Source: Magnetospirillum gryphiswaldense MSR-1 v2 (GTDB lineage Bacteria; Pseudomonadota; Alphaproteobacteria; Rhodospirillales; Magnetospirillaceae). From it: a stretch of DNA of 64,000 bases. The first letter of the stretch is position 1. Every line of letters starts with the position of its first letter. Positions 12,312-28,666 of this stretch are shown here, in pieces. Where the stretch lies: positions 2,526,501-2,590,500 of the forward strand of contig NC_023065.1 of assembly GCF_000513295.1 (NCBI RefSeq). Direction: 5' to 3'. A program made the position numbers and the translations under genes. Below the pieces are notes generated by a model. That model was not told where the DNA came from and did not search any database. It saw only the letters and a list, made by a program, of their open reading frames with translations.

Positions 12312-12326
12312 GTTCCCTCTATGTTC
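12312..12326 (+). promoter_or_regulatory. LexA box (alphaproteobacterial type)
   Basis: GTTC-CCTCTAT-GTTC matches the GTTC-N7-GTTC site known for alphaproteobacterial LexA. It lies directly at the 5' end of the umuD gene and overlaps the ATG I assign. SOS control of umuDC follows from this. Confidence 0.75.
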
Positions 12327-12791: not shown

Positions 12792-12797
12792 CCCGCC

Positions 12798-14075
12798 ATG
12801 GCCATCTTCGCCTTGGTCGATTGCAACAATTTCTATGTATCCTGCGAGCGGGTGTTCAATCCGGCCCTTGAGGGCAAGCCCGTCGTCGTTCTATCCAACA
12901 ACGATGGCTGTGCGGTGGCGCGTTCCGCCGAAGCCAAGGCCATTGGTGTCCCAATGGGTGAGCCGGCGTTCAAGCTTCGGCATCTGGTCGAGCGGCACGG
13001 CCTGATCATGCAATCATCCAATTATGCCTTGTACGGCGACATGTCCGAGCGGGTGATGTCCGTGCTGGCCACCTTCGCCCCCGGCGCCGAAGTCTATTCC
13101 ATCGACGAGTGCTTCCTTGATCTCGACGGGTTATCGGTGCCCGACCTTACCCAATGGTGCCAGCATGTTCGGGCGACGGTCAAACGCTGGACCGGCATCC
13201 CCGTGTCGGTGGGGATCGGCGGCACCAAGACGCTGGCCAAGCTCGCCAACCGGCTGGCGAAGAAGTCGCCCAAGGCCAACGGGGTGCTTGACCTGGTCAG
13301 CCATCCCGCTTGGGTCGAGGTGGCGCTGAAGCGCACCCCGGTCGGTGAGGTTTGGGGCATCGGACGGCAATATGCCGGTCATTGTGGGGTTCACGGTATC
13401 CTTAGCGCCCATGACCTGACCCAGGCAGAGGACGGTTGGATCAGAAAGACGATGGGGGCGGTCGGCCTGCGAACAGTGATGGAGTTGCGCGGGGTGGCGG
13501 TCCACACCCTCGACACCGAACCGGCGGACAAACAGACAACCTGCTGCTCGCGTTCGTTCGCCGAAGCGGTCACGCTTTACGACCATGTGCATGACGCTGT
13601 GCTGACCTTCGCCAGCCGTGCCGCCGAAAAAATCCGGGCTGATGGTCTGGTCGCCGGGGCTCTCCAGGTGTTTGCCCAGACCGACCGCTTCCGCCGCGAT
13701 CAGCCCCAGTTCACGTTGAACGCAATGGTGCGGCTGTCGCCCGCGACAGATTCGACGCCGCGTCTGATCGCGGCGGCTATCTCTGGGCTGCACTCGGCGT
13801 GGCGCGACGGCTATGCCTATAAGAAGGCAGGGGTGATCCTGATCGATCTGGTCGATCCGGCCAACATTGCCCGCGACCTGTTCTCACCGCCGCCAGATAC
13901 AGGCGCCCGAGCCCAAGCGTTGATGAATGCGGTTGATGGTCTCAACAACCGGATGGGCAAGGGCGCCGTCGGCTATGGTTTGGTTGCCAAGGGGGCGCCA
14001 TGGCAAATGCGGTGCGGCAACCGCTCTCCGAGCTATACCAGCGACTGGATGGACCTGCCGGTGGCTAAGGCGTGA
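12798..14075 (+). CDS. umuC: UmuC, Y-family DNA polymerase V catalytic subunit
   Basis: The 425-residue length and sequence are typical. Visible are [16 protein letters not shown] with the first catalytic Asp, [12 protein letters not shown], and [13 protein letters not shown] with the SIDE motif supplying the Asp-Glu pair. The little-finger domain and C-terminus ([17 protein letters not shown]) are present. With UmuD' it carries out error-prone bypass of DNA lesions. Mobile umuDC-type operons on ICEs and plasmids (for example rumAB of R391) are established precedent. Confidence 0.95.
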
Positions 14076-14238
14076 GGCGGGGCAAATGGCCAAATGGGGC
14101 CGGAGAACGAACCCGCTGCGCGGGATGGATGTTCTATGTTGATGCGCCTGTCGGTCCCGGATAGTTGCGCCATGGTTGAGTGCGGCCCGGCATAGTCCGA
14201 GCATTTTGGCTCCTTCATTGGATTTGAGGAGCCGTCCC

Positions 14239-15147
14239 ATGACCACGCCCATTCCCTGCGCCCCGATCAGCCCATTGCGTCAGCGGTTGATCGAGGACAT
14301 GACCTTGCGCCGGTTTTCACGCGAGACGCAGCGCAACTATATCCGTGACGTCGGGCGCTTCGCCGCATTCCTGGGGCGCTCGCCCGACACGGCCACAGCG
14401 GAGGATGTTCGCCAGTTCCAGCTGGAGCAGCGTGAGTCCGGCGTGCCGGTGCCGACGATGAACAGCATCGTTTCGGCATTGCGGTTCTTCTTTACCCATA
14501 CGATCGACCGGCCTGATCTGGCGCGCAAGCTGATGCGGATATCCCATCCACGCCAGTTGCCAATGGTGCTGAGCCGGGAAGAGGTCGCCCGCCTGTTGAA
14601 TGCGACGACGTGCCTCAAGCACCAGGCGGCCTTGTCGGTCGCCTATGGCGCGGGTCTGCGCGTCGCCGAGGTGTCCGCGCTCAAAGTCCGTGATATCGAC
14701 AGCGAACGCATGCTGATACGGGTCGAACGCGGCAAAGGCGGCCGGTCTCGCAACGCGATGCTGTCGCCCGATCTGCTCACTCTGCTGCGCCAATGGTGGG
14801 CGTTCGGACGTCAGCAGGGCGTCATGCATCGCGATGGTTGGCTGTTCCCTGGACAGCACACGATGAAGCCGATCAGCACCCGGCAACTGCACCGTATTGT
14901 GGTCGAGGCGGCCCAGGCGGCGGAGATCGCCAAGCGGGTCGGACCGCACACGCTCCGCCACAGCTTTGCCACCCATCTGCTGGAAGACGGAGTCGACATC
15001 CGGGTCATTCAGGTCCTGCTCGGCCACAGCAAGCTGGAGAACACCGCCCTCTACACCAAGGTGGCGACGCGGACGGTGCGCACCGTGGTCAGCCCGCTCG
15101 ACAGGCTGGCGCTGTTCAAGGTCGAAGAGACCGAGCCCAACGGCTAA
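14239..15147 (+). CDS. XerC/D-like tyrosine recombinase of the IS91-like element
   Basis: The 302-residue product has a SAM-like core-binding domain (LRRFSRETQRNYIRDVGRF) and a catalytic domain with Arg in GAGLRVAEVSAL, Lys in GKGGRSR, H-x-x-R in GPHTLRHSFATHLL, His in LLGHSKL and the nucleophile in NTALYTKVATR. The ATG at 14239 is chosen over an upstream in-frame start because MTTPIPCAPISPLRQRL matches the domain start. Such genes precede the transposase in the ISPps1 type of IS91 elements. Their role in transposition is not settled. Confidence 0.88.
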   Translation: MTTPIPCAPISPLRQRLIEDMTLRRFSRETQRNYIRDVGRFAAFLGRSPDTATAEDVRQFQLEQRESGVPVPTMNSIVSALRFFFTHTIDRPDLARKLMRISHPRQLPMVLSREEVARLLNATTCLKHQAALSVAYGAGLRVAEVSALKVRDIDSERMLIRVERGKGGRSRNAMLSPDLLTLLRQWWAFGRQQGVMHRDGWLFPGQHTMKPISTRQLHRIVVEAAQAAEIAKRVGPHTLRHSFATHLLEDGVDIRVIQVLLGHSKLENTALYTKVATRTVRTVVSPLDRLALFKVEETEPNG

Positions 15148-15151
15148 GCGG

Positions 15152-16342
15152 TTGCGGGCCTCGCTCGAGGTCGCCGATATCTTCCGAGTTGCCGGACCGG
15201 CCTACCGGGCTGCCCATGCCGGCCATCTGAGCCTGCATCAGCTCAAGGTCATGTCGGCGATCGAGCATTGCCGTACCGCCGCGTTGGGTGGTCACGTCGA
15301 AGCCTGCGAGGAGTGCGGGCATTGGCGGATCGCCTATAACAGCTGTCGCAATCGACATTGCCCCAAGTGTCAGGGAGCCGCCGCGCGGACATGGTTGGCG
15401 GAACGGGAAGCCGATCTGCTCCCCGTGGGCTATTTCCATGTCGTCTTCACGCTGCCGGACGAGGTCGCCGGCATCGCCTTTCACAACAAGGCGATGCTTT
15501 ATGACCTGCTGTTCCGCGCCGCCTCGGAGACGATGTTGACGATCGCGGTGGATCCGAAGCATCTGGGCGCCCGAATCGGCATTACCGCCGTTCTCCACAC
15601 CTGGGGTTCGGCTCTGACGCATCATCCCCACGTGCACATGATCGTTCCCGGCGGCGGCATCGCGCCCGACGGGAGATGGGTGTCGTCCCGTCCGGCTTTC
15701 CTTCTTCCCGTCAGGGTGCTGGGCGCGCTGTTCCGTCGTCTATTTCTCACGCGTCTGATCGCGCTTCACGATTCCGGCCAACTCGCCTTCTTTGGCGCTA
15801 TCGCCCATCTGGCCGAGAGGCGAACATTCCTGCGGCATCTCTCTCCGGTCCGAAAGAAACGCTGGGTCGTCTATGCCAAGCCTCCCTTCGGCGGCCCCGA
15901 GGCCGTGCTCGCCTATCTGGCGCGCTACACCCACCGCGTCGCTATCTCGGATCGCCGCCTCATCGACTTCGACGAGAACGGCGTCACCTTCCGCTACAAG
16001 GACTACCGACGCGAGGGGGCTGACCGGCAACGCGTCATGACAGTTCCTGCCAGCGAGTTCATCCGCCGGTTCATGCTGCACATCCTGCCGCGCGGATTCC
16101 ATCGCATCCGTCATTACGGCCTGCTTGCCGCGTCCTGCCGAAAGGCAAGCCTCGAACGCATTCGCGCGCTTCTGGCCGTCGCCCCGCCGGCAGAAGCCGA
16201 TGTCCCGGATGAACCCGCCGATGCCTCGCGGCCATGTCCCTGCTGTGGCGGGCGCATGGTGGTCATCGAGCTTTTCGAACGGGGACACCAGCCTCGTGCG
16301 CCGCCCGTCGCGGCACTGCCGAACCGGGAGAGTTCGCCATGA
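15152..16342 (+). CDS. IS91-family (HUH) transposase
   Basis: The product has about 396 residues. It begins with a zinc-binding N-terminus (CEECGHWRIAYNSCRNRHCP), followed by the HUH motif HHPHVHMIVPGGG, in which two His coordinate the metal. The tyrosine motif is YLARYTHRVAI. The enzyme nicks one strand at the element end and joins it to its Tyr, as in rolling-circle transposition. No ATG is well placed; a TTG at 15152, five bases after the upstream stop, is the likely start. A C-terminal cysteine pair (CPCCGG) is present. Confidence 0.88.
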   Translation: MRASLEVADIFRVAGPAYRAAHAGHLSLHQLKVMSAIEHCRTAALGGHVEACEECGHWRIAYNSCRNRHCPKCQGAAARTWLAEREADLLPVGYFHVVFTLPDEVAGIAFHNKAMLYDLLFRAASETMLTIAVDPKHLGARIGITAVLHTWGSALTHHPHVHMIVPGGGIAPDGRWVSSRPAFLLPVRVLGALFRRLFLTRLIALHDSGQLAFFGAIAHLAERRTFLRHLSPVRKKRWVVYAKPPFGGPEAVLAYLARYTHRVAISDRRLIDFDENGVTFRYKDYRREGADRQRVMTVPASEFIRRFMLHILPRGFHRIRHYGLLAASCRKASLERIRALLAVAPPAEADVPDEPADASRPCPCCGGRMVVIELFERGHQPRAPPVAALPNRESSP

Positions 16343-16606
16343 TCCGGCATGGCCTGACCACTCCAGGCACCCGAGGCGCCACGCGTCGGATGACGATCCC
16401 GTATGCGCTTTTCTCCGAAACCCTCGACGCCACGCGGGTTCGCGGCCATCCTGGCCTTCCGGAAGGGGGCTCGACAGCCCAACCTGACGATCTCTCCGCG
16501 TCAAACCGGCCCCTTCCGACCAGCCGTTGCGCCGGCGCCAGGACCAGCCGGAAAACGAAATCCCCATAGGCCTGTCTTTGCATCCCGCGGGTTCGTTCCT
16601 CGGAGA

Positions 16607-17054
16607 CTTTCGTACGCCTCCCGGCGCCCGAAACTCTTCACGAAAGCGGTCAGGCCGCTTCAGGGTGGTAATCGCGTAGAATTGTCGGCCAGCTTCTGCC
16701 CCATCGACCGAGCCGCGCCTTATGGGCTAATCTACCTGAAGTGGCGCAGCTCTCAGGCGTCGCGTAGCTGCAGCCGACCAATACGGGGGTTCCAGGATGG
16801 CCACGTCTGTTCGACCTCGCTAGAATTCATGCAATTTACAGAACTGGGGCAATTCGCTGGAGGGACGGAGGCTGACAGCAAACCTTCTCTGTTTAAGAAT
16901 CAATGGGATATGATGTTGTCGGTGCCCAATCGCGGCGTCATTCCAGCGGATCCGACCGGTCTTGGCAGCCCGATCGGCTTCTCTGGCATTCGCCGTGTCG
17001 GCGGCATGAGGGCGCAGGGCGAATCGGATTGTAGTGAATACAAAATTGTCACTG
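16607..17054. other. About 450 bp without a recognisable gene
   Basis: Between the IS91-like end and the stop of the M50/HlyD gene I see only short frames without ribosome sites. Some codons on the minus strand (READRAAKTGRIRWNDAAIG) resemble insertion-sequence debris, but I cannot assign them. Confidence 0.4.
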
Positions 17055-19163
17055 CTACGCCCCCCATTCACGGATCAGCACGACCATGACCGACCTGGCC
17101 AGCCGGCCGATGAGGCTGGAGTTTTCGGCCTCGATGGAGATTGTCCCGATTTCCTCATGGGCGGGCGGCGGGCCTTCGAGGGCGATGGTCACCCGGGTGA
17201 TGGCGCCGTCGGGGATGACGGTCTGACCCGAGACCCGTGCGGGAATGTCGCCGCCATGGACGGAGGCCAGCGCCCCGTCGGGCAGGGTCTTGGCGGGTGA
17301 CGGATCGATCCGCTGTACGCGCCCGGGCCGGGACGCGCTTTCCATCGCGTGGGGGGAGAAGGTGGCGCCCGCGCCGCCCTGGATACGGGCAAGATCGTCC
17401 TCGGCCACATAGGCGACCGCGATCGGGGCGGAATTTTCCAGGACAAGCCCGAGCTTCTGGCGGGGTGAAAGCCAGTCGCCGGGCTGCATGTCCGGCAGGA
17501 TATCGAGGATTCGGCCCTCCATGGGGGCGAGAATAGCGAGGCGATTTGCTTCCGCTTCCAGGACGGCCAGCTCGGCCTGGGCCTTGCGCAGATCCTCTTG
17601 CACGATGCCGGCACGGTCGCGCAGCAAAGGATCGAGGGTGGCGGCTTCAAACTCGGCGGTCTTGCCGTCGATGCGGGCCTGGGCTACCGCCTTGCGCAAG
17701 GCGATGTCGGGGGCGGTGAAGCTCATCAGCACGTCGCCCGGCTTCACCGCCTGCCCATGGGAAACGTGGATTGCTTCCAGCCGGGCCGGAAAGGGCAAAT
17801 GGAGGGCGGCGGACCGGCTTCCCTTCATCACCGCTGGCGCGCTCACACTGCCCTGCCAGGGGATGAGGGCGAGCAGGATGAGGGCTCCAAGCGTCCCCAG
17901 CGTCCAGCGGATACGTGTTCCCGCCATGATGGTCGTCTTCACTTTCTCCCATTCCCGTACCTCGGCCCAGATGGGCCGGGCAACGAACCACCAGATTTCC
18001 ACCACGAACAGCATGATGCCCACGGCCTTGATGAAGAAGTGGTAGACCATGACGGCGATACCCAGGAACAGCACCAGGCGATAGATCCACACCGCCACGG
18101 CAAAGGCGATCAGCGCCCGGCGCCTGCCTGCGGGCAGAGGCTCCGGCGGCGGCGTGCCCAGTCCGAACAGCACGTTGCGCAGCCACCATCGTGCCATGGC
18201 GAAGGAACGCGGGTGCAGGTTCGGCATCTCCATCGCGTCCATGGCGATGAAATAGCCGTCGAAGCGCATGAAGGGACTGAGGTTGATGGCCAGCGACGAG
18301 ATCCAGGTCAGCGCCGCCAGCACGAAGGTCGCCTGTTTCCATGGCCCCTCGGGCAGGAAAGCCCAAGCCAGGGTTGCCCAGGCAGCGATGATGAGTTCGG
18401 CCAGGATACCCGCCGAGCCGACCTGAAGGCGCTTCTTGCGCTCGGGCAGCATCCAGGTGTCGTTGACGTCGGTGTAGAGCATGGGCCACAGCACCAGGAA
18501 GGCCACCCCCATGCTGGGCACGCGGCAGCCATGGTTCTTGGCGGTGTAGGCATGGGCAAGCTCGTGGATCACCTTCACCACCGTGAGCGCGATGCCATAG
18601 GACACCAGCCCCGATAGCGAGAAGGTGTCCACCAGGGTGGCGACGAACAGATCCCATTGCCGTCCCGCCAGTATCAGACCGATGGTCAGGGCCATCATGG
18701 TCGTCACCTGGAACCCGTGCGATCCCAGCCAGCGCACCAACGGCAGTGTCCGGTCGAGCCAGTGATCGGGCCGGACCAGGGGGATACGGAAGAACAGGTA
18801 ATGGTGCATCAGCCAGTGGAACCAGGACTGCTTCTCGGCTTCGGCCCGCGACACCAGCCTTTGCGTGTCTTGGGGACCTGCCGGTCGGGTCAATTGGTTG
18901 GCGACCAGAAACTCGGCCACGCCCTTTACGTCGTCGTCCGTGGGATGAAGCGTGGTTTCGGCCGATACCGCCTCGGCGATTTTGGCGGGCGTCTCGGCCC
19001 ACCAGCGGCTAAGGATCTCGAAGGCCGGCCAGGAAATGCGGAAAAAGCGGTTGCGGACCGGGTCGCGGATGGTCCAGGACGGCGAGCCGTCGGCTCCGGC
19101 GGGGCCGGGATGCAAGGACAGCTCGGTGCGTAGCGTCGGCAGAATACCCATCTCTGTTGTCAT
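17055..19163 (-). CDS. PqqD-like / M50 metalloprotease-like / HlyD fusion transporter protein
   Basis: Three parts can be read in the 702 residues. Residues about 10-95 look like a PqqD-type winged domain (WTIRDPVRNRFFRISWPAFE). Residues about 130-440 are polytopic membrane with VIHELAHAYTAKNHG (HExxH) and FMRFDGYFIAMD, which resembles the second M50 ligand motif. Residues about 440-702 are an HlyD/lipoyl adaptor with a coiled coil (FPARLEAIHVSHGQAVKPGD, LDILPDMQPGDWLS). Proteins of this layout, annotated as putative peptide zinc metalloproteases, sit with TolC and HlyD genes. No ABC ATPase is nearby. Function as an exporter core for the adjacent surface protein is inferred. Confidence 0.8.
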   Translation of the reverse strand: MTTEMGILPTLRTELSLHPGPAGADGSPSWTIRDPVRNRFFRISWPAFEILSRWWAETPAKIAEAVSAETTLHPTDDDVKGVAEFLVANQLTRPAGPQDTQRLVSRAEAEKQSWFHWLMHHYLFFRIPLVRPDHWLDRTLPLVRWLGSHGFQVTTMMALTIGLILAGRQWDLFVATLVDTFSLSGLVSYGIALTVVKVIHELAHAYTAKNHGCRVPSMGVAFLVLWPMLYTDVNDTWMLPERKKRLQVGSAGILAELIIAAWATLAWAFLPEGPWKQATFVLAALTWISSLAINLSPFMRFDGYFIAMDAMEMPNLHPRSFAMARWWLRNVLFGLGTPPPEPLPAGRRRALIAFAVAVWIYRLVLFLGIAVMVYHFFIKAVGIMLFVVEIWWFVARPIWAEVREWEKVKTTIMAGTRIRWTLGTLGALILLALIPWQGSVSAPAVMKGSRSAALHLPFPARLEAIHVSHGQAVKPGDVLMSFTAPDIALRKAVAQARIDGKTAEFEAATLDPLLRDRAGIVQEDLRKAQAELAVLEAEANRLAILAPMEGRILDILPDMQPGDWLSPRQKLGLVLENSAPIAVAYVAEDDLARIQGGAGATFSPHAMESASRPGRVQRIDPSPAKTLPDGALASVHGGDIPARVSGQTVIPDGAITRVTIALEGPPPAHEEIGTISIEAENSSLIGRLARSVMVVLIREWGA

Positions 19164-19189
19164 TCCCGCCCCCCCATGGAGACACGGAG

Positions 19190-19483
19190 ATGAGAAGGAT
19201 CTGGGCAGTCACCACCGCGTTTCTGGCCTTCACCTCCTCGGCCATGGCCGAATCCGATTGCGAATTGGCAAAAGCCGCCAAGGATATCGCCATCGAAGTC
19301 GAACGCTTCAGCACACCGGGCCAGCGTCGCGGCATCGAGGACGTGGCACGCCTGCTGGTTCCGTCCCCCTGCAAGACCAGCCCGGCTCCCCGCCTGGTTC
19401 TGGAGAACGTCGAGCTTGGACTGCTCGCGGAGGACTGGCGCCGAGGCACCGAGGAACTGGAGCAAAGGCGGCTCGACCGCTGA
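19190..19483 (+). CDS. Small secreted protein
   Basis: A 97-residue product with a clear Sec signal peptide (MRRIWAVTTAFLAFTSSAMA). Two Cys in the short mature part could form a disulfide. GGAGA precedes the ATG. It is divergent from the M50/HlyD gene and convergent with the adaptor gene, so it is the only rightward gene among the leftward export genes. No family is recognised; it may be periplasmic and accessory to export. Confidence 0.6.
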   Translation: MRRIWAVTTAFLAFTSSAMAESDCELAKAAKDIAIEVERFSTPGQRRGIEDVARLLVPSPCKTSPAPRLVLENVELGLLAEDWRRGTEELEQRRLDR

Positions 19484-19488
19484 CATCG

Positions 19489-20775
19489 CTACCATCCAAG
19501 CCATTGCCTGATCACGGCCAGCGGTCGACGGAACAGCCAATAGACCAGGGAGACCCGGTCGCCATCCAGGCGGGCAGTGCCCTTCAATCCGATGCGGGGG
19601 ATGGCGTCGTCATGGGCAATCTTCGCCCGTACCCGATGGGCCAACACCCCGTCGGGCTTCAAGGTCGCCTCGAAAGCCACATAGGACAGCGTGGCCACGA
19701 CGGGTGACAGCGGGGCGGTGTTGAGGAACAGGACCACTTTCCCGCCCGGCTCCAACGGGATCAAATCAGCGGGCGCCAGCCAGGCTTCCACCTCCACCTG
19801 ACGAGGATCGGCCACCGCTAGCACCTTTTCGCCCACGCTGACCGGGCGGCCTATCCATTCGCTGGGATCGTCCATCACCGCGAGACCGTCGCGGGGCGAC
19901 TTGACCTGGGCGCGGGTCATCAGGTCTTCGAGCTGGGCGCGTTCGGCCTGTTTCTCCTCCACCTTGGCCTTGAGGACCGCCCAGCCGGCCTTGGCCTTGG
20001 GGTCGAAGAAGGCCTGCTGGGTGGCTTGGTCCAGTTCAGCCTTGGCCGTATCCAGGACCTTGGCCGCCACCTCCAGCTTGCCGGCGATGGTGGTGCGGTC
20101 CAGTTCGAACAGAACGTCACCCGCCACGACACTCTGGTTGGGCTGGGCGCGGACCAATTCGATCACGCCTTCCAGGGGGGCGCGGATCACCGCCGGGTCC
20201 GAGGGGACGATCTCGGCTGAGGCCAGGACTGACAGGCGGACGGGAAAGATCAGGGCCAGGAGGATTCCCGCCGCCACTATCCGCTTCCAGCGTGGCAGGC
20301 TGGTCAGGCGGTGGCGCCACTGGGACAACGGCGCGGATTGGTGCTTGGCCGCCCAGGCGAAGGCGTAGGCATCGGTCAGCCGCTGGACGATCGCCGTGGT
20401 GCCTTCGTCCCAATCCTCGTCGCGGGCCAGAAGCAGCGTGCCCAGGCGCTTGCCGTCGGCATCCTTCAGCGGCAGGAACAATGGCTTGGGCGGCAGCCAA
20501 TCCGCCCATTCCTCGCGCTCGGCGGAAGAAATTTCCTTGCCGGCCTCATGGAGCTTGAACATCCGTTGCAAGAACAAGGTGAAGGGCGCGTTCTCCTCCA
20601 CCGAGGACACTCCCGAAACCGCCACCACCCCCTTGTCCGCCATATGCAGCGCCGCCTGATGGTATTCAGCCAGGGCGCGGGTGTCGTTGACCATGACGAA
20701 AGCGAGCTGGATGGTGGTGCGCGCATTCAGCGCTTGCTCCTCGATCCCCAGCAGGGTGACGAGCGCCTCGCTCAC
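19489..20775 (-). CDS. HlyD-family adaptor with cytoplasmic sensor-like N-terminus
   Basis: Residues about 1-150 look like a GAF-type cytosolic domain (ARTTIQLAFVMVNDTRALAE, GTLLLARDEDW). A membrane anchor lies at about 163-190 (WKRIVAAGILLALIFPVRLS). Then comes a lipoyl half-motif (APLEGVIELVRAQPNQSVVA), a coiled coil and a beta-barrel C-terminus. The family bridges the inner membrane to a TolC channel. A GAF-like domain at the cytoplasmic end is unusual. It overlaps the downstream part of the next adaptor gene by 4 bp. Confidence 0.8.
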   Translation of the reverse strand: MSEALVTLLGIEEQALNARTTIQLAFVMVNDTRALAEYHQAALHMADKGVVAVSGVSSVEENAPFTLFLQRMFKLHEAGKEISSAEREEWADWLPPKPLFLPLKDADGKRLGTLLLARDEDWDEGTTAIVQRLTDAYAFAWAAKHQSAPLSQWRHRLTSLPRWKRIVAAGILLALIFPVRLSVLASAEIVPSDPAVIRAPLEGVIELVRAQPNQSVVAGDVLFELDRTTIAGKLEVAAKVLDTAKAELDQATQQAFFDPKAKAGWAVLKAKVEEKQAERAQLEDLMTRAQVKSPRDGLAVMDDPSEWIGRPVSVGEKVLAVADPRQVEVEAWLAPADLIPLEPGGKVVLFLNTAPLSPVVATLSYVAFEATLKPDGVLAHRVRAKIAHDDAIPRIGLKGTARLDGDRVSLVYWLFRRPLAVIRQWLGW

Positions 20776-21506
20776 TGCGGGGCCATGCTGATTTTTCCCG
20801 TCATTCCCGCCATCAATTCGGGGAAGTCGCCCTTGATCTCGGCGGTGATCTTGACCGAATGGCTGACCGCATCGACCTTGGCGCCCATGCGGGCGATCCG
20901 GCCCGGATAAGTCTTCCTGGTCTCGTCCACCATGATCTGAAGAGAGGTGCCGGGCTTCAAGGTCGTCACCGCCGACGAGGGTACGATGAATTCGGCGTTC
21001 AGCACGGAATCATCCAGAATCTCCAGGATGGCCTGGCCCACCTGGACGTATTGATGGGCGCGGGCCTTCTGCTCCACCACCCTGCCCGCGAACGGCGCGG
21101 AAATACCGCATTTGGAAGCCACGGCACGGGCCGAGTTAAGCTTGGCCTGCGCCACCGCCGCGTCCCAGCCCGATTTTTCCGCCTCCAGCGTGCCGGTGGA
21201 GTTGAGCTCCAGCAGCCGCTTGTACACTGCCTTGGACTTCTCGGCGGCGGCAAAAACGGCACTGGCCTCATCCACCAGAGCCCGCTGGATGGTGCAATCG
21301 AAGGCCACCAGTTGCTGGCCTTCCTTAAAGCGCTCGCCTTCCTTGACGGTGATACGGTCGATCTTGGCGGGCAGCTCCGCCGACAGGGTGGTGTAATTCA
21401 CCGCGACCAGTTGCACGGGAATCACCGGCTCCTGCGCCTCGGCCCCGAAGGACAGAAGGCACAGGAGGGGCGCCACCCAGCGCTTGAGGGCAATGGGGCT
21501 AATCAC
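20772..21506 (-). CDS. Periplasmic membrane-fusion (HlyD/RND-adaptor-like) protein
   Basis: The 244-residue product has a signal peptide (residues 1-24, ending AEA), two lipoyl halves (LPAKIDRITVKEGERFKEGQ and ISAPFAGRVVEQKARAHQYV) around a helical hairpin, and a C-terminal barrel. It is short for the family and lacks a membrane anchor. With the 428- and 702-residue adaptors this makes three HlyD-type proteins in one cluster. It follows the TolC-like gene by one base. Confidence 0.85.
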   Translation of the reverse strand: MISPIALKRWVAPLLCLLSFGAEAQEPVIPVQLVAVNYTTLSAELPAKIDRITVKEGERFKEGQQLVAFDCTIQRALVDEASAVFAAAEKSKAVYKRLLELNSTGTLEAEKSGWDAAVAQAKLNSARAVASKCGISAPFAGRVVEQKARAHQYVQVGQAILEILDDSVLNAEFIVPSSAVTTLKPGTSLQIMVDETRKTYPGRIARMGAKVDAVSHSVKITAEIKGDFPELMAGMTGKISMAPQ

Positions 21507-21507
21507 G

Positions 21508-23139
21508 TCAGTGGCTATCGGCCTGCTCGGCCAGGGCGGCGATCTTGCGGCCCAGCCAGAATAACCCGTCGCGCACCACGTCCTCCCGCTCCGGCTCGGC
21601 AGCGGCGGCCTGTACCTCAGGCGCAGTCACCGGCGCCGGATCGGCCTTCACCGCCGGCGGCATGGAAAGGACGATGGCGCCGGACAAGCCGTCCAGCGAG
21701 TGCGAGGCCACCTTTTCCGGCACCGGATCGGCGCCGATGGTCGATTGCAGCTTGCCGTAAGAGGATTGCATCTGGGCGTAGGTCTGGAAGCGGCGGAGTT
21801 CGGCGGCGATGGCCGAGGTCTCGGTGCTGATGCGCTCGATTTCGTTGACGGTGCCGCCGCGGCTCTGGTTGCCGGCGGCATCGGCCAGGCGCTTCTCGAT
21901 GCCCCACAGCTTGTCGGCGCGCTCGAACTGCTTGGCGGCGCTGGCGAATTGGTGGGACACCACATGGACCTGGGCCAGAACCGCCATGCGCAGCGCGATG
22001 CGCTTGGCCTCGACCACCTTCTCGGCGCTGTCGGCATGGGCCATGCGGTCGGGCGCCGCCAGCAGGTTGATCAGGTTCCAGGTGACCTTGGTGCCCACAT
22101 CGTTCCAGCGGTTGTCCACCAGGAACGAATTGGAATCGTACTGGCGCGAGAACGACACGGTGATGCCGGGCAGAAGCTTCAGGATCTCCTTGTGGGTGTC
22201 GTCGAGGGCGATGCGGCTTTGGTAATCCTGTTCGCGCAGATCCGGGTTGTTGATCATGGCGGCCTGTTCCATGGCGCCGATGTCCATGGGCCATTCGGGC
22301 ACGCTCATGCCGCCATTGGCGGGCACATCCAGCTTGAAATCGCTGCCGGGCGCCACGTTGATCAGGGCGGCCAGTTCGGCCTTGGCCGAGGTCAGTTCCT
22401 GGTCGATGGCCTCCAGCTGGCGGATGCTTTCCAGCAGGGTCTTCTGGATGCGCAGGCTTTCGATGGGGTTCTTCAGGCGCTCGCCCTCGACCTTTTCCGA
22501 ATCCTTCAGCGCCTTCTCGGCCGAGGTGATGGTGTCGGTCACCTTGGCCTTCAAGGTTTGTGCGGCGGCGGCCCGCCAGAAGGTGAAGCGCACCTCCTGG
22601 ACCAGATTATTGATGGTCTTGCGTCGCCTCTCACTCGCGATCAGGGCGCGGTCGGCGTTCTGGTGCGCCGTGAAGTAGGACACGCCGAAATCCAGGATGT
22701 TCCAGGTCAGCCCCAGGTCACTGGTGACGGAGAAGCGATCCGCCGAATAGCTGGGGTTCGAGGTGCTGGTGGTCTGGGTATAAAGATCGCGCGACCGGGT
22801 GGCGTTGGGCTCGGATCGCTCGGTATAGCCGGCATTGGCGGTCAGCTTGGGCAGCAGGTCGAAGCGGTCCAGGCTGGTCTGCCCCAAGGCCAGCGCCTCT
22901 TCCATCATCTTGGCGCGCTTGTCCAGATTGTACTTCAGCACGCGGGCCACCGCATCGGCCAGGGTCAGCGGCTTGGCTATCACCTCCTGGCCTTCGAACA
23001 TGGCTGCGCGGTCGGCCTTGGCACGCGCGGAGAACTCATCGGCCGTGAACGGCGTTGGCGTCACGGCGCAGGCGCTCAGCAGGGCAGCGGTGGAAACAGC
23101 GGCCAGCAGGCGGGCCATGCGAGTGGTGACGACGGTCAT
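21508..23139 (-). CDS. TolC-family outer-membrane channel protein
   Basis: The 543-residue product starts with a lipoprotein-type signal (LAAVSTAALLSACAV). It shows the two TolC repeats: an N-terminal one with LTLADAVARVLKYNLDKRAK and VTSDLGLTWNILDFGVSYF, and a second with DYQSRIALDDTHKEILKLLP and VSFSRQYDSNSF. A Pro/Ala-rich tail follows. As an outer-membrane exit duct it fits the adjoining adaptors. The gene is probably co-transcribed with the surface-protein gene upstream and the adaptors downstream. Confidence 0.9.
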   Translation of the reverse strand: MTVVTTRMARLLAAVSTAALLSACAVTPTPFTADEFSARAKADRAAMFEGQEVIAKPLTLADAVARVLKYNLDKRAKMMEEALALGQTSLDRFDLLPKLTANAGYTERSEPNATRSRDLYTQTTSTSNPSYSADRFSVTSDLGLTWNILDFGVSYFTAHQNADRALIASERRRKTINNLVQEVRFTFWRAAAAQTLKAKVTDTITSAEKALKDSEKVEGERLKNPIESLRIQKTLLESIRQLEAIDQELTSAKAELAALINVAPGSDFKLDVPANGGMSVPEWPMDIGAMEQAAMINNPDLREQDYQSRIALDDTHKEILKLLPGITVSFSRQYDSNSFLVDNRWNDVGTKVTWNLINLLAAPDRMAHADSAEKVVEAKRIALRMAVLAQVHVVSHQFASAAKQFERADKLWGIEKRLADAAGNQSRGGTVNEIERISTETSAIAAELRRFQTYAQMQSSYGKLQSTIGADPVPEKVASHSLDGLSGAIVLSMPPAVKADPAPVTAPEVQAAAAEPEREDVVRDGLFWLGRKIAALAEQADSH

Positions 23140-23162
23140 AACGAAGTGATCCCCTTGAGTGC

Positions 23163-24017
23163 TTACGCAGTGCGGGCGACGGCGCGGGCCGCAGCCAGCA
23201 ATTGGGCCTGACGGGCGCCGGACAGACGGCTCGCCATGCGGAGTTCTTCCTGGAAGGTCGGCTTGCCGGCGAAGGTCTGGCCCCCAAAGGTCTGACTCGG
23301 GCCGAATTCCGACAGCTTGATGATCGGCGCGGTCGGGTCGGGCGCCAGTTCGCCCTGCTGGCCGGGCGCCTGCGGCACCTCGCCCTGCGGCGGCTGGTTC
23401 TCGGAGGCCGGCGGCGCGTTGTTCTGAATGACGCCGCCACCGCCGCGGACCCGAATCTCGAAGGTCGTGCCCACCTCGTTACCGGCATTGTCACGGGCAA
23501 CCACCACCACCGACAGGGCGCCGTTAAAGCCTTCTGGCGCTTCACCGACAAAAACCCCCTTGGCAGAATCGAAGGAAAGCCATGCCGGCAACGGGCGCCC
23601 ATCGGTCAACTTGGCGGCCAAGGTGATGTTGGCCTCAGCGCTGGTATGCCCAAAGGCATCGATCGGAATGGAGAAATTGACCATCCGGCTTTCCGGCAGA
23701 ACCGCAGGGATTCCCTTTTGCACGAAAAGCGCACCGTCTCGGACGGCGTTGACCGAGGGTGTTCCCACGGCCACTTGGAAACCGTTGCCGCCGGTCGTGC
23801 TCAGGTGCCGCATCGCCTGGAAATTGCCCTGAACCCCTTGAGCGAATTCACCCGCAGGTGCCCGCACGGCGGTGACGAGGGAAGCACCGGTATCGCCTGT
23901 CTGAGCAATCGGAGCCTGGATTTTCACCGAGACGGCCTCCCCCGTCCTTGGCGGGGGGGGCGGAGACGACGACGACGACGACGACATGACGCGGTGGAGG
24001 GCGGGATGTATCTCCAC
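23163..24017 (-). pseudogene. C-terminal part of the DUF4347 surface protein, in shifted frame
   Basis: This frame continues the DUF4347 gene but is offset by one base. It opens with a Ser run and a Pro run, then has a cadherin/Ig-like domain (FSIPIDAFGHTSAEANITL, LPAWLSFDSAKGVFVGEAPE, VVVARDNAGNEVGTTF), a Pro/Gln linker and a helical end (ELRMASRLSGARQAQLLAAA). Putative Ig domains of this type usually sit at the end of large exported proteins. It has no convincing start of its own. One extra C in the tract at 23953-23960, or -1 slippage there, would join it to the upstream part. Confidence 0.7.
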
Positions 24018-25804
24018 AGCTCTCTACCATTGGAGCCTTCAGAGGCCGAAAAATACAGGGTGCCGTTCACGTAGATCATATTGGTAGGGGAAGAGCCGGT
24101 TGCGCCGGGCCAGATATCCGCGACCCTGCTGGGCGCGTTGATCCCGTCGTATTTCCACAACTCTAGATCGCCGTTGCCTTCGCCGGCCGAAAAATACAGG
24201 GTGCCGTTCGCGTTGGTTATAAATTCTATGGTACCGGGACTTCCGGCGGGGCCGATATTCGCGACCATGCTGGGCGTGTTGGTCCCGTCGTATTTCCACA
24301 GCTCATTACCGTTGGTGCCGTCGCTGGCCGAAAAATACAAGGTGCCGTTCACGTCGGTCAGATATGACGGGCTAGAGCCGGTTGCGCCGGGGTTGATATC
24401 CGCGACCATGCTGGGTGCGTTGATCCCGTCGTATTTCCACAGCTCAGTACCGTTGGTGCCGTCATTGGCCGCAAAATACAGGGTGCCGTTCACGTTGATC
24501 ATATTGCCAGGGGAAGAGCTGTTTGCGCCGGCGCGGATATCCGCGACCCTGCTGGGCGCGTTGGTCCCGTCGTATTTCCACAGCTCATTACCGTTGGTGC
24601 CGTCGTTGGCCCTAAAATACAGGGTGCCGTTCACGTTGGTCAGATGTTCTGGGGTAGAGCTGTTTACGCCGGGGTTGATATCCGCGACCCGGCTGGGCGC
24701 GTTGATCCCGTCGTATTTCCACAGCTCTTGACCGTTGGTGCCGTCATTGGCCCCAAAATACAGGGTGCCGTTCACGTTGGTCATATATTCTGGGGTAGAG
24801 CTGCTTGCGCCGGGGTTGATATCCGCGACCATGCTGGGCGCGTTGGTCCCGTCGTATTTCCACAGCTCAGTACCGTTGGTGCCGTCATTGGCCCCAAAAT
24901 ACAGGGTGCCGTTCACGTTGGCCAAATTGTTTGGGCCAGAGCTGTTTGCGCCGGCGCGGATATCCGCGACCATGCTGGGCGCGTTGATCCTGTCGTATTT
25001 CCACAGCTCAATACCGTTGGTGCCGTCATTGGCCCTAAAATACAGGGTGCCGTTCACGTTGACCGGCATACCTACGTTGCTACTATTTACGCCAGGGTTG
25101 ATATCCGCGACCCTTTCGGGATTGGCAAGCAATCCGTCAAACCCCGCCAGTGCCGCCGCATGGAAATACTGGGACGCATCCACATCGCCGGCTTCCAGGT
25201 GCCAGTCGCCGCCGAACGCCGCATTGCCTGTGGAATCGGCGGACGCGGCAACCGAACGCCCCGTGATGTCGGACAGGTAAGCCAGCAGTGCATTTCCGAC
25301 ACTATCGCCCGCCACGCCGCAGGCCAGCAGGTCGATGCGCCCGCCCTCGGTGATTTGTGCCCCCAGCCCCCTCATGAAGGCTTGCAGCGCGTCGTCGCCG
25401 GCAAGTCCCGCCAGCGACACGCCGTATTGCGCCGTCAGCTCGAATGCGCCGTTTGCGCCGTGCGAGGCCAGGGCGATGGACGAAGCCTGCCGCCCGTCCA
25501 GCGCATGGGAAACACGGGCCAGGATGGCATCCAGGCTGTCGGCTTCGGCGTCATAGCGCACCACCAGCACATCATCCTTGGCCGCAAGCGCCAGATCGTC
25601 GCCATCGGCGACGCGCGAGGACAGCAGCAGAACGCGCGGATTGGCCGTCACCGCGACCGGCATGACGGCATCCGCCCCATCCGAATGCGCGTCCACCGCC
25701 TCGGCCATGGCCGCGCCGTCGAACATGATGCGCGGTTCAAGCGCCATCATCGGGGCAAAGACCCGACCCGTTGATTGACCGGATTTGTGCAAAACCTTGC
25801 CCAT
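23924..25804 (-). CDS. DUF4347 surface protein with ELWxxDGT repeats (frame ends early)
   Basis: From the ATG at 25804 the product begins with the LEPRIMFDGAA motif found near the N-terminus of DUF4347 proteins. The DUF4347 domain runs to about residue 220 (VLLLSSRVADGDDL, IALASHGANGAFELTAQYG, IDLLACGVAGDSVGNALLAY). Seven complete and one partial 47-residue repeats follow (NGTLYFxANDGTNGxELWKYD). The frame then leaves the coding sequence after RELWRYIPPS into a meaningless Arg-rich end, while the logical continuation lies in the neighbouring frame (23163-24017). No classical signal peptide is seen, so export through the TolC/HlyD cluster is inferred. Confidence 0.8.
   Translation of the reverse strand: MGKVLHKSGQSTGRVFAPMMALEPRIMFDGAAMAEAVDAHSDGADAVMPVAVTANPRVLLLSSRVADGDDLALAAKDDVLVVRYDAEADSLDAILARVSHALDGRQASSIALASHGANGAFELTAQYGVSLAGLAGDDALQAFMRGLGAQITEGGRIDLLACGVAGDSVGNALLAYLSDITGRSVAASADSTGNAAFGGDWHLEAGDVDASQYFHAAALAGFDGLLANPERVADINPGVNSSNVGMPVNVNGTLYFRANDGTNGIELWKYDRINAPSMVADIRAGANSSGPNNLANVNGTLYFGANDGTNGTELWKYDGTNAPSMVADINPGASSSTPEYMTNVNGTLYFGANDGTNGQELWKYDGINAPSRVADINPGVNSSTPEHLTNVNGTLYFRANDGTNGNELWKYDGTNAPSRVADIRAGANSSSPGNMINVNGTLYFAANDGTNGTELWKYDGINAPSMVADINPGATGSSPSYLTDVNGTLYFSASDGTNGNELWKYDGTNTPSMVANIGPAGSPGTIEFITNANGTLYFSAGEGNGDLELWKYDGINAPSRVADIWPGATGSSPTNMIYVNGTLYFSASEGSNGRELWRYIPPSTASCRRRRRRLRPPRQGRGRPSR
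23953..23960 (-). other. C8 homopolymer tract at the frame break
   Basis: Eight C in the coding strand, preceded by five or six CGT/TCG triplets. Adding one C restores one continuous frame from the DUF4347 domain to the Ig-like end. A -1 slip on CCC-CCC would do the same. Confidence 0.75.
24013..25065 (-). repeat. 141-bp tandem coding repeats
   Basis: About seven and a half 141-bp units encode the ELWxxDGT repeats (47 residues each). DNA identity between neighbours is high, so the copy number could change by recombination. The most constant core is NGTLYF...DGTNG.ELWKYDG.NAPS.VADI. Confidence 0.9.
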
Positions 25805-25908
25805 GCCGCTTCTCGCCCTCGACCCATCATCGCCGTTGGATATAGTATTGTTCGAAATAGGTGCCTGCAATGAAAAACAGTGTAAAAACATGATGTTAGC
25901 TGATGAGC

Positions 25909-25943
25909 CTGACCTTCCCTGACCGAAGCTGACATTGGCTGAC
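25909..25943. promoter_or_regulatory. Four CTGAC repeats at exact 10-bp spacing
   Basis: CTGAC occurs at 25909, 25919, 25929 and 25939, preceded by a CTGAT at 25900. It lies between the divergent DUF4347 and histidine-kinase genes. Phased direct repeats are the usual binding pattern of OmpR/PhoB-type regulators, and one is encoded two genes away. Confidence 0.65.
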
Positions 25944-25989
25944 ACGATTTCATTCAAAGGATGTTTTTTGAGGCAGATGGGATAATCAG

Positions 25990-27984
25990 ATGTTGTCTTG
26001 CCGCCGAAAGGCTCTGAGCGTGATTTTACAGGTCCTGGCCATCCTTGGGCTGCTGGCGGTACTTGTGGATTCTGCCCAGGCTTCCTCTCCCGTGGTGCTC
26101 GACGGTCGGGCCGGCGACGTGGACGGGCGCGGCCATATGGCGATCTTCCGCGATCCCGAGGGCACCCGGACATTGGACGAGATCATCGGGATTGACGCGG
26201 CGGGAAGGTTCAAGCCGATCCCCGGCAATGTGGGGCTTGGCTATACTCCGGACACCATCTGGCTGCGCATGGATCTGGTCCTGCCGGAAGGCGCCCCGGA
26301 GAGGTGGCTACTTGAAGTCATGCCGTCCTATCTCGACCACCTCGACCTTTACCTTCTGCCCCCCGACGGCGTGCGGCACGGGGCGACGGCCGGCGACAGG
26401 CTCCCGTTCTCGGCCCGAACGGAGGAATACCGGAACTTTCTTTTCCCGCTCCACATCCCGGCGGGAAAAAGCCGTCTCTATCTGAGGGTCAAGAGCACCA
26501 GCGCGATGACCGTGCTGCCCCGCTTCTGGCAGCCTTCCGCTTTCGAGCACGCCGTCAGCGGCGAGTCCGCCTTGCTCGGCCTCTATTACGGCGCCCTTCT
26601 GACGGTGACGCTCCTCAACCTGATCGGCTTCGCCATCAACCGCCAGAGCATTTACCTGACCTATTCGGGCTACGTGTCATTGATCGGCGTGCATTTTTTT
26701 GCCATCGACGGATTGCTGGCGCAATTCGCGCTGCCCGATCACCCGCTGATCGCCAACCAGATGCTGGGGGCCACGATGGGACTGGGGGCGATCTTCGGCT
26801 TTCGCTTCTATGCCCAGGTTCTTCGGCTGCCGGGCCGTTTCCCCTGGTCTGATCGGGTGATCTGGGGCATGGCCCTATTGGGCGGCGCCACGGCAATATC
26901 CGCGTTTACGCCTTACTACTCTGCCTTTGCGCCGCTGCTATTGCTCGCGATGATCGCGTCACTTCTTGTCTTTCTGAAACCCCTGATCTCCCTTTGGCGC
27001 AATCGGGATGCCGAAAGCCGGCTGATCGCGCTCGCCTATACATTTTACGCCGGGCTGCTTTTTACGACGCTGACGGCCGCCCTTGGCCTTACCGAGCCGA
27101 CGAAGCTGTCTCTCATAAGCTCGCTGTGCGGAAGCGTGATTCATTTCGCGATCCTGCATTCAAGCCTTTTCCTGCGCGCTCATCGCGCTCAGCGGGACAA
27201 ACTCGTCGCCGAAGCCGTTGCTGAAAGAGCGCGGCAGGAAGGAAGCATGGAAAGGGAAATGAGGATCGAGCGCGAGCGTCTGCTGGACATGATCGGCCAC
27301 GAAATTCTTACCCCGGTGGCTGTCATCGATGCGGCGAACCAGACGCTTCGGGTCCTTGATACCGATACGTCGCCCGATCGCGAAAAGCGCTATGACCGGA
27401 TCGGGGGTGCGGTCGAGCGGTTGAAGGCCATGCTGGATTTGGCCACTCATCGCCAGAACCTGGAGGCCGATTACAGCGAACCCGCCCGCCATCCGATCAA
27501 TATCGAAGGGCTGATGCAGGAAAGTGTCGAGCTTCTTGGTCCCGAGGGGGAAAAGCGGGTAGCGGTTCGCTCCGGCACCACACTTCCTTCGGTCCAGGCG
27601 GACGAGCGCATGCTCCGTTTCGCTCTCCTCAATCTGCTGGACAACGCGGTGAAGTATTCCCCCCGCAATTCGCCCATCGAAGTGGACGTTTCGCCTCGTT
27701 TCCATGACGGCCGAAGCGGCCTGTGCTGGTCGATCGTCAACGATGGGGCGGCAATTCCGCGCGACATCGAAACCACGATTTTCGACAAATATGTTCGCGG
27801 CAGCGAGGAAGCCGGCCAAGCCGGCATGGGATTGGGGCTTTACCTGACCCGGTACATCTTCGAACGACATGGGGGATGGGTGCAACTGGAGGAAAATACG
27901 AAGGGAAGAATCTGCTTCCTGGCTTGGCTACCGACCGATACGGAACAGGCCGGAGCGAAGCAGGAGGCCGGCCAATGCGAATAG
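25990..27984 (+). CDS. Sensor histidine kinase with 7TMR-DISM sensor
   Basis: The 664-residue protein has a signal peptide or first TM (about 1-31), a periplasmic 7TMR-DISMED2-like domain (about 35-180), seven TM helices (about 185-395), and a short coiled coil. HisKA follows with His437 in MIGHEILTPVAVI, then the ATPase with LLNLLDNAVKYSPRN (N box) and AGMGLGLYLTRY (G box). DISMED domains are thought to sense carbohydrates or other small ligands. The ligand is unknown. Its stop overlaps the regulator gene by 10 bp. It is divergent from the surface-protein gene. Confidence 0.92.
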   Translation: MLSCRRKALSVILQVLAILGLLAVLVDSAQASSPVVLDGRAGDVDGRGHMAIFRDPEGTRTLDEIIGIDAAGRFKPIPGNVGLGYTPDTIWLRMDLVLPEGAPERWLLEVMPSYLDHLDLYLLPPDGVRHGATAGDRLPFSARTEEYRNFLFPLHIPAGKSRLYLRVKSTSAMTVLPRFWQPSAFEHAVSGESALLGLYYGALLTVTLLNLIGFAINRQSIYLTYSGYVSLIGVHFFAIDGLLAQFALPDHPLIANQMLGATMGLGAIFGFRFYAQVLRLPGRFPWSDRVIWGMALLGGATAISAFTPYYSAFAPLLLLAMIASLLVFLKPLISLWRNRDAESRLIALAYTFYAGLLFTTLTAALGLTEPTKLSLISSLCGSVIHFAILHSSLFLRAHRAQRDKLVAEAVAERARQEGSMEREMRIERERLLDMIGHEILTPVAVIDAANQTLRVLDTDTSPDREKRYDRIGGAVERLKAMLDLATHRQNLEADYSEPARHPINIEGLMQESVELLGPEGEKRVAVRSGTTLPSVQADERMLRFALLNLLDNAVKYSPRNSPIEVDVSPRFHDGRSGLCWSIVNDGAAIPRDIETTIFDKYVRGSEEAGQAGMGLGLYLTRYIFERHGGWVQLEENTKGRICFLAWLPTDTEQAGAKQEAGQCE

Positions 27985-28664
27985 TGCTGGTCGAGGACAA
28001 TTCCGACTTCCGCGAAGAAGTGCAGTTCCATTTGCAGCGGGCCGGACACGAGGTTTTCATCGCCGCCGATGGCGCCGGCCTCGACCAGGTGCTGGCGGTG
28101 CATCACATCGAGATTGCCGTCCTTGACCTGGGGCTTCCCGGCGAGGACGGCCTGTCCATCACCCACCGCCTTCGCATGTCTCATCCCGAAATCCGGATCT
28201 TGATGCTCACCGCACGATCCAGCCAGCATCACCGGATCAGCGGATTGGAAAAAGGGGCCGATTCCTACCTGACCAAGCCGGTCGACATGCGGGAATTGTG
28301 TGCCGTCATCGAGAGCATCCGCAGGCGCATTTCGCCAGCCGTGGCCGACCATCGCGCGCCGGGCTGGACCCTGAGCCTGTCCACCATGACGATCATGACG
28401 CCCAAGGGTGAACGGATCACCTTGACCCCGACCGAAATGCTTCTGCTGCGCCCGCTTGCGGAAGCCGCGCCGGACATCGTCAGCCGACAGCAATTCGCCA
28501 AGGCGCTCGGGCATCGCGAGGAGGATTACGATTACCGGCGTCTTGAGGCCGTCATCAGTCGCTTGCGAAGAAAAATCGCGACGTCGGATGAGGAAAGCTC
28601 TGTGATCAAGCCGGCTCGTGGTAGAGGCTATATCTTCGCCGCGCCAATAACGGTGATCCCCTAG
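27975..28664 (+). CDS. OmpR/PhoB-family response regulator
   Basis: Receiver domain (1-120): acidic pair in VLVEDN, phospho-acceptor Asp in VAVLDLGLPGEDGLS (written IAVLDLGLPGEDG in the sequence), Thr in MLTARSS and Lys in YLTKPVD. The C-terminal winged helix (about 135-229) contains LTPTEMLLLRPLAEA and YDYRRLEAVISRLRRKI, then a PARGRGYIF wing. It is the partner of the overlapping kinase gene. The phased CTGAC repeats in front of the kinase are its likely target, controlling both the kinase operon and the divergent surface-protein/export operon. Confidence 0.93.
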   Translation: MRIVLVEDNSDFREEVQFHLQRAGHEVFIAADGAGLDQVLAVHHIEIAVLDLGLPGEDGLSITHRLRMSHPEIRILMLTARSSQHHRISGLEKGADSYLTKPVDMRELCAVIESIRRRISPAVADHRAPGWTLSLSTMTIMTPKGERITLTPTEMLLLRPLAEAAPDIVSRQQFAKALGHREEDYDYRRLEAVISRLRRKIATSDEESSVIKPARGRGYIFAAPITVIP

Positions 28665-28666
28665 TT

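Follow-up and report, generated by a model that had tools for sequence, protein, structure and literature searches.

What exports a large surface protein when the genes beside its own encode HlyD adaptors and a TolC-like factor, with no ATP-binding cassette (ABC) transporter among them? This question is raised by a gene cluster of Magnetospirillum gryphiswaldense MSR-1 v2, which lies in a stretch of 64,000 nucleotides (contig NC_023065.1, positions 2,526,501 to 2,590,500) that we call the window. Read along the minus strand, the cluster (17055-25804) consists of a substrate gene spread over two frames, a TolC gene, a small HlyD gene, a gene for an HlyD adaptor with a putatively GAF-like end, and a gene that fuses an M50-type protease to HlyD. 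Pfam and NCBIfam scans of the window's open reading frames (ORFs) recovered every part where the original prediction, made from the DNA letters, had placed it (Table 1). Our preferred reading, to which we give a probability of about 55%, is that these genes encode a dedicated machine which would export and mature neighbouring giant LE[PQ]RxMFDGA surface proteins across both membranes. It builds on comparisons of sequences: the genes are linked, the protease residues are invariant, the substrates have two conserved termini, and no ABC gene is linked to the system.

The fusion matches Peptidase_M50 (E 1.3e-9; PF02163, 38.1 bits against a cut-off of 27.2) and HlyD_3 (E 1.8e-9). In an alignment of 40 fusions (A4: 36 of the 80 surveyed below, three paralogues from the same genome and the window's own), H200, E201, H204 and D302 are invariant in 40/40 rows. 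The M50-like membrane protein does have the intact HELAH motif claimed for it, and it has the M50 ligands, i.e., HExxH plus a distal Asp. Because the catalytic residues are invariant across these rows, the protease looks active. An AlphaFold2 model with the 40-row alignment as input (mean per-residue confidence, pLDDT, 87.8; predicted template-modelling score, pTM, 0.67) resolves into a small N-terminal domain of strands and helices, a membrane part of several helices, among them the HELAH helix (183-210), and a hairpin-bearing adaptor. Foldseek returned 411 matches to the whole model; the 50 listed are all adaptor folds (EmrA, MacA, MexA), and the M50 and N-terminal parts have no fold match among those 50. 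When PDB sequences were searched with a profile, the fusion weakly touched two M50 structures (E 0.011 and 0.055). Among NCBIfam models, the membrane part is matched best by NF041824, the daptide intramembrane metalloprotease (163.5 bits, cut-off 300; E 7.7e-48), and YydH/LiaK NF058609 also matches it, below its curated cut-off (E 1.8e-10).

PqqD domains and the recognition elements (RREs) of ribosomally synthesised and post-translationally modified peptide (RiPP) systems bind peptides, and their topology is three strands followed by three helices. The N-terminal domain of the fusion is predicted to have strands at residues 16-20, 29-34 and 39-43 and helices at 45-52, 59-69 and 76-88. For the winged PqqD-like domain originally proposed here, only this predicted strand/helix order fits. 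Three attempts at a sequence-level identification failed: Pfam scans of the fusion found no PF05402 (PqqD) match, and hhalign against one PqqD-like protein of the genome gave a probability of 1.5%. A separate PDB search with a profile of the domain gave only weak matches (best E 0.076). For the GAF-like cytoplasmic end ascribed to the second adaptor, two of four homologues scanned have matches below the Pfam cut-off (L128, PF01590, 21.2 bits against 22.4; L112, PF13185, 16.1 bits against 28.6), but the window's protein and the other two homologues have none. The small HlyD protein is an RND-type adaptor (TIGR01730, 114.5 bits against a cut-off of 94.9), bringing the HlyD domains found by Pfam and NCBIfam in the cluster to three, as befits the adaptor part of a type I system. 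The TolC-like protein matches OEP (E 1e-26), and the type I TolC model TIGR01844 gives it just 13.6 bits against a cut-off of 225.

A GTDB scan gave 563 confirmed loci, and we surveyed the best 80, which are almost all titled as alpha-, beta- or gammaproteobacteria or Magnetococcales. The pair of GAF-HlyD and M50-HlyD genes is present in 75/80; four of the loci with no GAF-HlyD gene (L067, L094, L098, L103) end near the fusion at a contig edge, and the fifth (L111) does not. In 51 loci both genes are present and the DNA extends 3.5 kb or further upstream; a profile matches a giant substrate in 41 of these, a count that reading by eye raises to 49. The ten profile-negative loci comprise two with shorter matching C-terminal ORFs (L109, L121), six with an unmatched ORF of more than 1,600 residues before the system (L110, L114, L115, L126, L128, L129), and two in which reading the upstream sequence by eye gave no acceptable giant ORF (L070, L131). 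TolC is found in 31/51 loci; in beta- and gammaproteobacteria, where seen, it mostly precedes the giant gene, close to where the DNA of the locus ends. L077 (titled Akkermansia) and L065 (Stygiobacter), which we retained in these counts, are probably misbinned, their fusions nesting among those of Limnohabitans and Magnetospirillum. The survey favours a linkage of fusion, TolC and LEPR-motif protein with no ABC gene in the operon, the combination that the original prediction had singled out. A distant subfamily of the fusion occurs in G050, G059, G054, G121 and a 3 kb contig of G109. In its four longer loci, the fusion is accompanied by a giant ORF, a GAF-HlyD-like gene and HlyD, and the ORF in TolC's place is unmatched by the TolC profile.

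The association extends to whole genomes. We sampled 120 Pseudomonadota genomes of at least 95% completeness, the window's own included, with thresholds of E 1e-60 for the fusion, 1e-8 for the substrate domain DUF4347 and 1e-12 for the substrate's C-terminal module. Fusion and DUF4347 each occur in 42 genomes and both in 37, so DUF4347 is found in 37/42 fusion-bearing genomes against 5/78 others (G090, G111, G130, G149, G151). Counted by genus, the figures are 22/26 and 5/51; the Fisher p values of 4e-20 (genomes) and 8e-11 (genera) are both inflated by shared descent. The C-terminal module is matched in 28 genomes, 25 of them fusion-bearing. Among the matches listed, 13 genomes have one that reaches the tail, and all 13 carry the fusion; the fusion-less G075, G145 and G154 match in the He_PIG core alone.

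The substrates of the family are alike at both ends and have little in common otherwise. Their N-terminus has a basic stretch leading into LE[PQ]RxMFDGA, which is present in 17/21 substrate ORFs of more than 700 amino acids (aa) that start within the locus. As for the four misses, L116 reads LEQRFVFDGA, L111 has the motif at residue 364, and L059 and L101 were read from inside the gene. In many alphaproteobacterial substrates the motif is followed by DUF4347, with a conserved Cys in 19/19 and a conserved His in 18/19 rows of alignment A5, from which degenerate or partial copies were omitted (including L066, L074, L103, L111 and a short L056 gene). In L103 and L111 the first of two tandem DUF4347 copies has neither residue, and L066 has no His. 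A solved DUF4347 chain, 9qpe_G (match E 0.0041), retains both, and together with the His/Cys pattern it suggests that the domain may be caspase-like. The window's substrate matches DUF4347 (PF14252) at 108.1 bits (gathering threshold 24.6; E 5e-31) and LEPR-XLL (NF012209, cut-off 17 bits) at 19.5 bits in a genome search and 13.7 bits when the window ORF was run in hmmscan. A DUF4347/ELWxxDGT surface-type protein with LEPRIMFDGA does stand beside the machine genes, as predicted. In ten beta- and gammaproteobacterial substrates (L077, L080, L082, L087, L093, L095, L099, L116, L118, L121), another domain replaces DUF4347. Nine of these share a pattern resembling EExGHxxD...GDEGxxFA, the L118 sequence being too short to tell, and no Pfam or NCBIfam model scores above cut-off in the four that were scanned.

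The C-terminus of the substrates has a tail and a He_PIG/dystroglycan-like domain, for which alpha-dystroglycan is the best match in the PDB (E 1.8e-8); alignment A3 of this region has 28 survey rows, one own-genome paralogue and the window. The core is found by pattern in 51/56 survey ORFs. For the tail we counted 73 substrates, i.e., those 56 C-terminal ORFs, seven giant ORFs chosen by eye and ten from the MSR-1 genome. A loose form of the tail pattern is present in 66 against 3.0 expected in shuffles, and a strict form in 47 against 0.02. The shuffles rule out a chance origin, but the pattern was derived from the same sequences, so the counts show its spread and are no independent test. The tail is a putative counterpart of the uncleaved C-terminal signal of type I secretion. 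In L056 (205-612), a gene of 76 residues directly before TolC consists of N-terminal motif and tail alone; it is either a natural minimal substrate or a deletion relic.

The domains of the DUF4347 protein are all present in the window, but in this assembly its gene is split: the DUF4347 ORF ends at 23924, and the half with He_PIG and tail lies in another frame. Comparable splits into an N-part and a C-part are found in the 3.33 Mb locus of the same genome, L065 and L121. The places of recurrence noted besides the window are L016 (around 10224-10378), L065, and L121 (7570-7573, there with a 4-base overlap). Candidate causes are sequencing error, slippage and real separation.

That no ABC transporter is encoded in the cluster was the starting point of the original prediction, and it stands. 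A profile built from 8 of the genome's 12 ABC loci (the eight in which a single ORF has both motifs) found none among window ORFs of at least 90 aa, so the ABC gene that type I systems encode with their other parts is missing here; elsewhere in the genome there are 13 PF00664 matches. Near 12 of the 80 survey loci there are ABC-like ORFs (17 in total), all of them on the downstream side of the fusion, 0.5 to 7.8 kb away. None lies inside the operon in the 80 loci or in five sets from MSR-1, as far as contigs reach, and eight further loci, five of them from the second subfamily, have no ABC gene, whether judged by profile or by the combination of Walker A and signature motif. At the level of the locus, we could therefore reject an ABC gene hidden in the operon.

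We infer secretion itself, cleavage and the order of steps, which would run as follows. The substrate's termini, i.e., the leader-like LE[PQ]RxMFDGA motif and the tail of G[RK]xxLSEQLR type, would be bound by the fusion's cytoplasmic N-terminal domain, by the second adaptor's GAF-like domain, or by both. At the inner membrane, the M50 site would then trim or release the bound end. The three HlyD-type adaptors would form a periplasmic tunnel docked to the cluster's own TolC, the substrate would be delivered to the surface, where further processing by DUF4347, whose His/Cys pair is caspase-like, may follow. Judging by the sequences, export and maturation are likely and cleavage by the M50 part is plausible. 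A stronger version, in which a widespread and undescribed one-step system has the M50/HlyD fusion replace the ABC exporter and read a bipartite signal with no dedicated ATPase, is one we hold only tentatively.

Such a machine would resemble type I secretion (HlyB/HlyD/TolC; LapB-type for giant adhesins) in its HlyD adaptors, its TolC-like factor, its operon with a giant repeat protein and its conserved C-terminal tail. It would differ in that searches of the operon yielded no ABC exporter, an M50 protease joined to HlyD forms the polytopic component in the inner membrane, the N-terminal LE[PQ]RxMFDGA is also conserved, and there is a second, GAF-like adaptor. RiPP-cluster M50/S2P peptidases (daptide NF041824, YydH/LiaK NF058609) are the nearest curated relatives of the membrane part; unlike them, the fusion scores below the curated cut-offs, is joined to HlyD and is linked to giant proteins and TolC. 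The adaptor fold of the fusion's C-terminus is that of tripartite efflux adaptors (MacA, EmrA, MexA), but no RND or MFS family recurs among the clustered neighbours, for which no profile search for such pumps was made. Peptidase-containing ABC exporters (PCATs, with C39 peptidases) also couple a protease to an exporter and have an N-terminal leader-like motif (in part after the available text of PMC8277102); here, however, the protease is an M50-type metalloprotease, no ATPase was found, and the cargo is giant rather than small. The same source, which reviewed tripartite and type I systems in 2021, names C39 and C80 peptidases; its available text contains no match for metalloprotease or GAF domain and one occurrence of 'M50' (PMC8277102). 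The substrate belongs to DUF4347 (PF14252) and carries the motif of LEPR-XLL (NF012209) proteins, for which no link to this machine was found in the literature searched. That literature, with subscription papers and preprints outside its coverage, gave no description of the system and no paper holding both 'peptidase M50' and 'HlyD'. Judged by title and the start of the abstract, none of the papers naming DUF4347 is about this cluster, and one is on type VI effectors.

Several points weigh against a dedicated machine. The main gap is energy: no dedicated ATPase was found in the operon, and M50 proteases are not known to drive translocation. The assignments of the two candidate binding domains, PqqD/RRE-like in topology and GAF-like, are weak. 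Five of the 42 fusion-bearing genomes (G050, G059, G097, G109, G122) have no DUF4347 match, 17/42 have no match to the C-terminal module at threshold, and the other 12 of the 25 genomes with module and fusion have at most the He_PIG core among the matches listed. In MSR-1 itself, the window tail and its second copy are among the seven misses of the tail pattern, one place off the loose form, and the substrate is split over two frames in both the window copy and the second genomic copy. Finally, all 41 relatives that we searched have some HlyB-like ABC gene at E 1e-10, and the LssB-type TIGR03375 is enriched in fusion-bearing genomes of the larger sample (22/42 against 16/78, p 5e-4).

These ABC matches bear on the strongest rival, a disguised type I system, in which an unlinked ABC exporter gives the inner-membrane step and ATP, and the fusion and GAF-HlyD serve as adaptor, maturation protease or surface-retention device. 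Such an unlinked partner is possible: the remaining parts (HlyD, TolC, C-terminal tail) are type I-like, and a giant ORF near the second-subfamily fusion L144 has RTX-like glycine repeats by eye. The claim of an ABC-less cluster stands for the operon, where fusion, TolC and LEPR-motif protein are linked with no ABC gene, and stays provisional for the genome. The search for a distant partner, partly run, also showed that the canonical exporters are absent from many fusion-bearing genomes. TIGR03375 has no match above cut-off in 20/42, the window's genome included; among the 41 relatives it is found in 0/18 fusion-bearing genomes and 2/23 others, and TIGR01846 (HlyB) in 5/18 and 4/23, i.e., it is absent from 13/18. 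Both fusion-bearing samples contain the window's genome. No single ABC lineage was shown to track the fusion, in a comparison of lineages that was not exhaustive. With the operons themselves free of ABC-like ORFs, we regard a disguised type I system as a possibility to be taken seriously but clearly less probable than a dedicated machine.

M50 proteases commonly act in regulated proteolysis, and the fusion and GAF-HlyD might sense the state of the surface protein and signal by regulated intramembrane proteolysis, with export taking place elsewhere. The GAF-like domain is consistent with this, as are the 7TMR-DISM kinase and response regulator genes divergently beside the substrate gene and the commonest extra neighbour family, a membrane-sensor-like protein (by eye) in 12 survey loci. 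However, that neighbour lies at varying distances and on both strands, and the adaptor fold with its helical hairpin and the TolC gene in the operon argue against signalling, which we consider unlikely. Still harder to sustain is a RiPP-like system that exports a small peptide or another small molecule, with the giant gene merely a frequent neighbour. The daptide metalloprotease match, the predicted RRE-like topology, the 76-residue L056 gene, and a small protein (about 118 aa, signal-peptide-like at its start) found in 7 loci, mostly right after the fusion, would suit it. Yet the giant gene is almost always there, with both termini conserved, and no other family occurs in at least five loci among neighbour ORFs of at least 80 aa, a size that shorter precursors would escape. 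We regard as very improbable a decayed or assembly-distorted locus with no present function in this strain: the split gene, the older Illumina/454 assembly (4.37 Mb against 4.16 Mb by single-molecule real-time, SMRT, sequencing) and a ratio of nonsynonymous to synonymous change (pN/pS) between the two copies of 0.68 for the whole substrate N-terminal part point to it, but, on few changes, TolC stands lower at 0.14, as do the DUF4347 domain at 0.31 and the C-terminal part at 0.46, and homologous sets occur across alpha-, beta- and gammaproteobacteria.

Table 1. Features of the export cluster and its surroundings, in window coordinates
Feature	Position	Strand	Basis
M50/HlyD fusion, 702 aa: winged-helix-like N-terminal domain, M50 membrane domain, HlyD adaptor	17055..19163	-	Pfam, AlphaFold2 model, 40-row alignment
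Fusion N-terminal domain, aa 1-95	18879..19163	-	Predicted strand/helix order; PqqD/RRE-like by topology only
HELAH zinc-protease motif, fusion aa 200-204	18552..18566	-	40-row alignment
Fusion HlyD adaptor domain, aa 437-682; predicted helical hairpin aa 485-540	17118..17855	-	Pfam, AlphaFold2 model, Foldseek
Second adaptor: GAF-like N-terminal domain (~160 aa), one hydrophobic helix (aa 166-184), HlyD domain	19489..20775	-	
Small HlyD/RND-type periplasmic adaptor	20772..21506	-	TIGR01730 above cut-off
TolC-like outer membrane factor, N-terminus lipobox-like (by eye)	21508..23139	-	OEP match
Substrate C-terminal part, separate frame: He_PIG/cadherin-like domain and conserved tail	23163..24017	-	
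Substrate C-terminal tail GKPTFQEELR..., candidate secretion signal; family form G[RK]xxLSEQLR	23166..23270	-	
Substrate N-terminal part: LEPR motif, DUF4347, eight ELWxxDGT repeats	23924..25804	-	
ALEPRIMFDGA motif, candidate N-terminal recognition or leader motif	25712..25744	-	
DUF4347 domain, conserved His (SHG) and Cys (here LACG, usually YGC)	25127..25633	-	
TCG-repeat and C-run stretch where substrate halves switch frame	23945..24015	-	
Small ORF between GAF-HlyD and fusion genes, signal-peptide-like start (by eye); possible accessory or chance	19190..19483	+	
Serine recombinase, S24 peptidase (UmuD-like) and Y-family polymerase genes on element	10432-14075		
IS91-type insertion (tyrosine recombinase, Y2 transposase) abutting fusion gene end; window copy only	13814-17031		
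Conjugative genes: relaxase, ArdC-like anti-restriction, TraG-like coupling protein, VirB11-, VirB10-, VirB8-like	30997-44208		

The cluster is surrounded by genes of a conjugative-type element and looks like its cargo; a related stretch of the element is found at 1.99-2.05 Mb of the genome. Window positions 17032-34340 recur at 2018753-2036061; over the 17,309 bases the two copies align without gaps and differ at 144 positions. The mismatches are confined to 21.5-26 kb (TolC, substrate) and beyond 32.5 kb (conjugation genes), and there are none in the fusion, GAF-HlyD and small HlyD genes. This duplication should be treated with caution because of the assembly history. The published MSR-1 assembly from Illumina and 454 reads has 4,365,796 bases (PMC3953193), as does the genome analysed here. 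The SMRT reassembly has 4,155,740 bp, and the paper on it suggests that the density of transposases may have been behind the previous difficulties in assembly (PMC5920173). For M. gryphiswaldense, multiple deletions are reported in the available part of PMC7860042. Divergent from the substrate gene lie genes for a 7TMR-DISM histidine kinase, a response regulator and a TonB-dependent receptor (25990-30565), in a region (about 26-32.5 kb) where the copies are mismatch-free; the kinase and regulator could possibly regulate the cluster. Between the GAF-HlyD and fusion genes, a 126 aa minus-strand ORF (19160-19540) was set aside as a gene in favour of the plus-strand ORF of Table 1.

MSR-1, a tractable laboratory strain, has eight such loci, five sets with intact machine genes and three partial loci. 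Beyond the window and its copy, intact sets are found at 2.73, 0.73 and 3.33 Mb, with fusions 52 to 60% identical; a decayed set lies at 4.10 Mb, and partial sets with no fusion at 0.305 and 0.618 Mb. In seven of the eight, the substrate has its own TolC and small HlyD, and the decayed locus D has TolC only. All nine DUF4347 matches of the genome fall within these eight loci. The substrate C-terminal module stands directly before TolC in every one except the 2.73 Mb set, in which two substrates lie between small HlyD and GAF-HlyD.

The fusion is common, with 42 of the 120 sampled Pseudomonadota genomes carrying it, yet the system is without a description in the literature searched. If a dedicated machine is the correct reading, one would have to ask how proteins of some 1,000 to 3,000 residues, or more, cross the inner membrane with no linked ATPase. 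Such a machine would also provide an exit route for many giant surface proteins, together with a two-ended secretion signal that can be tested.

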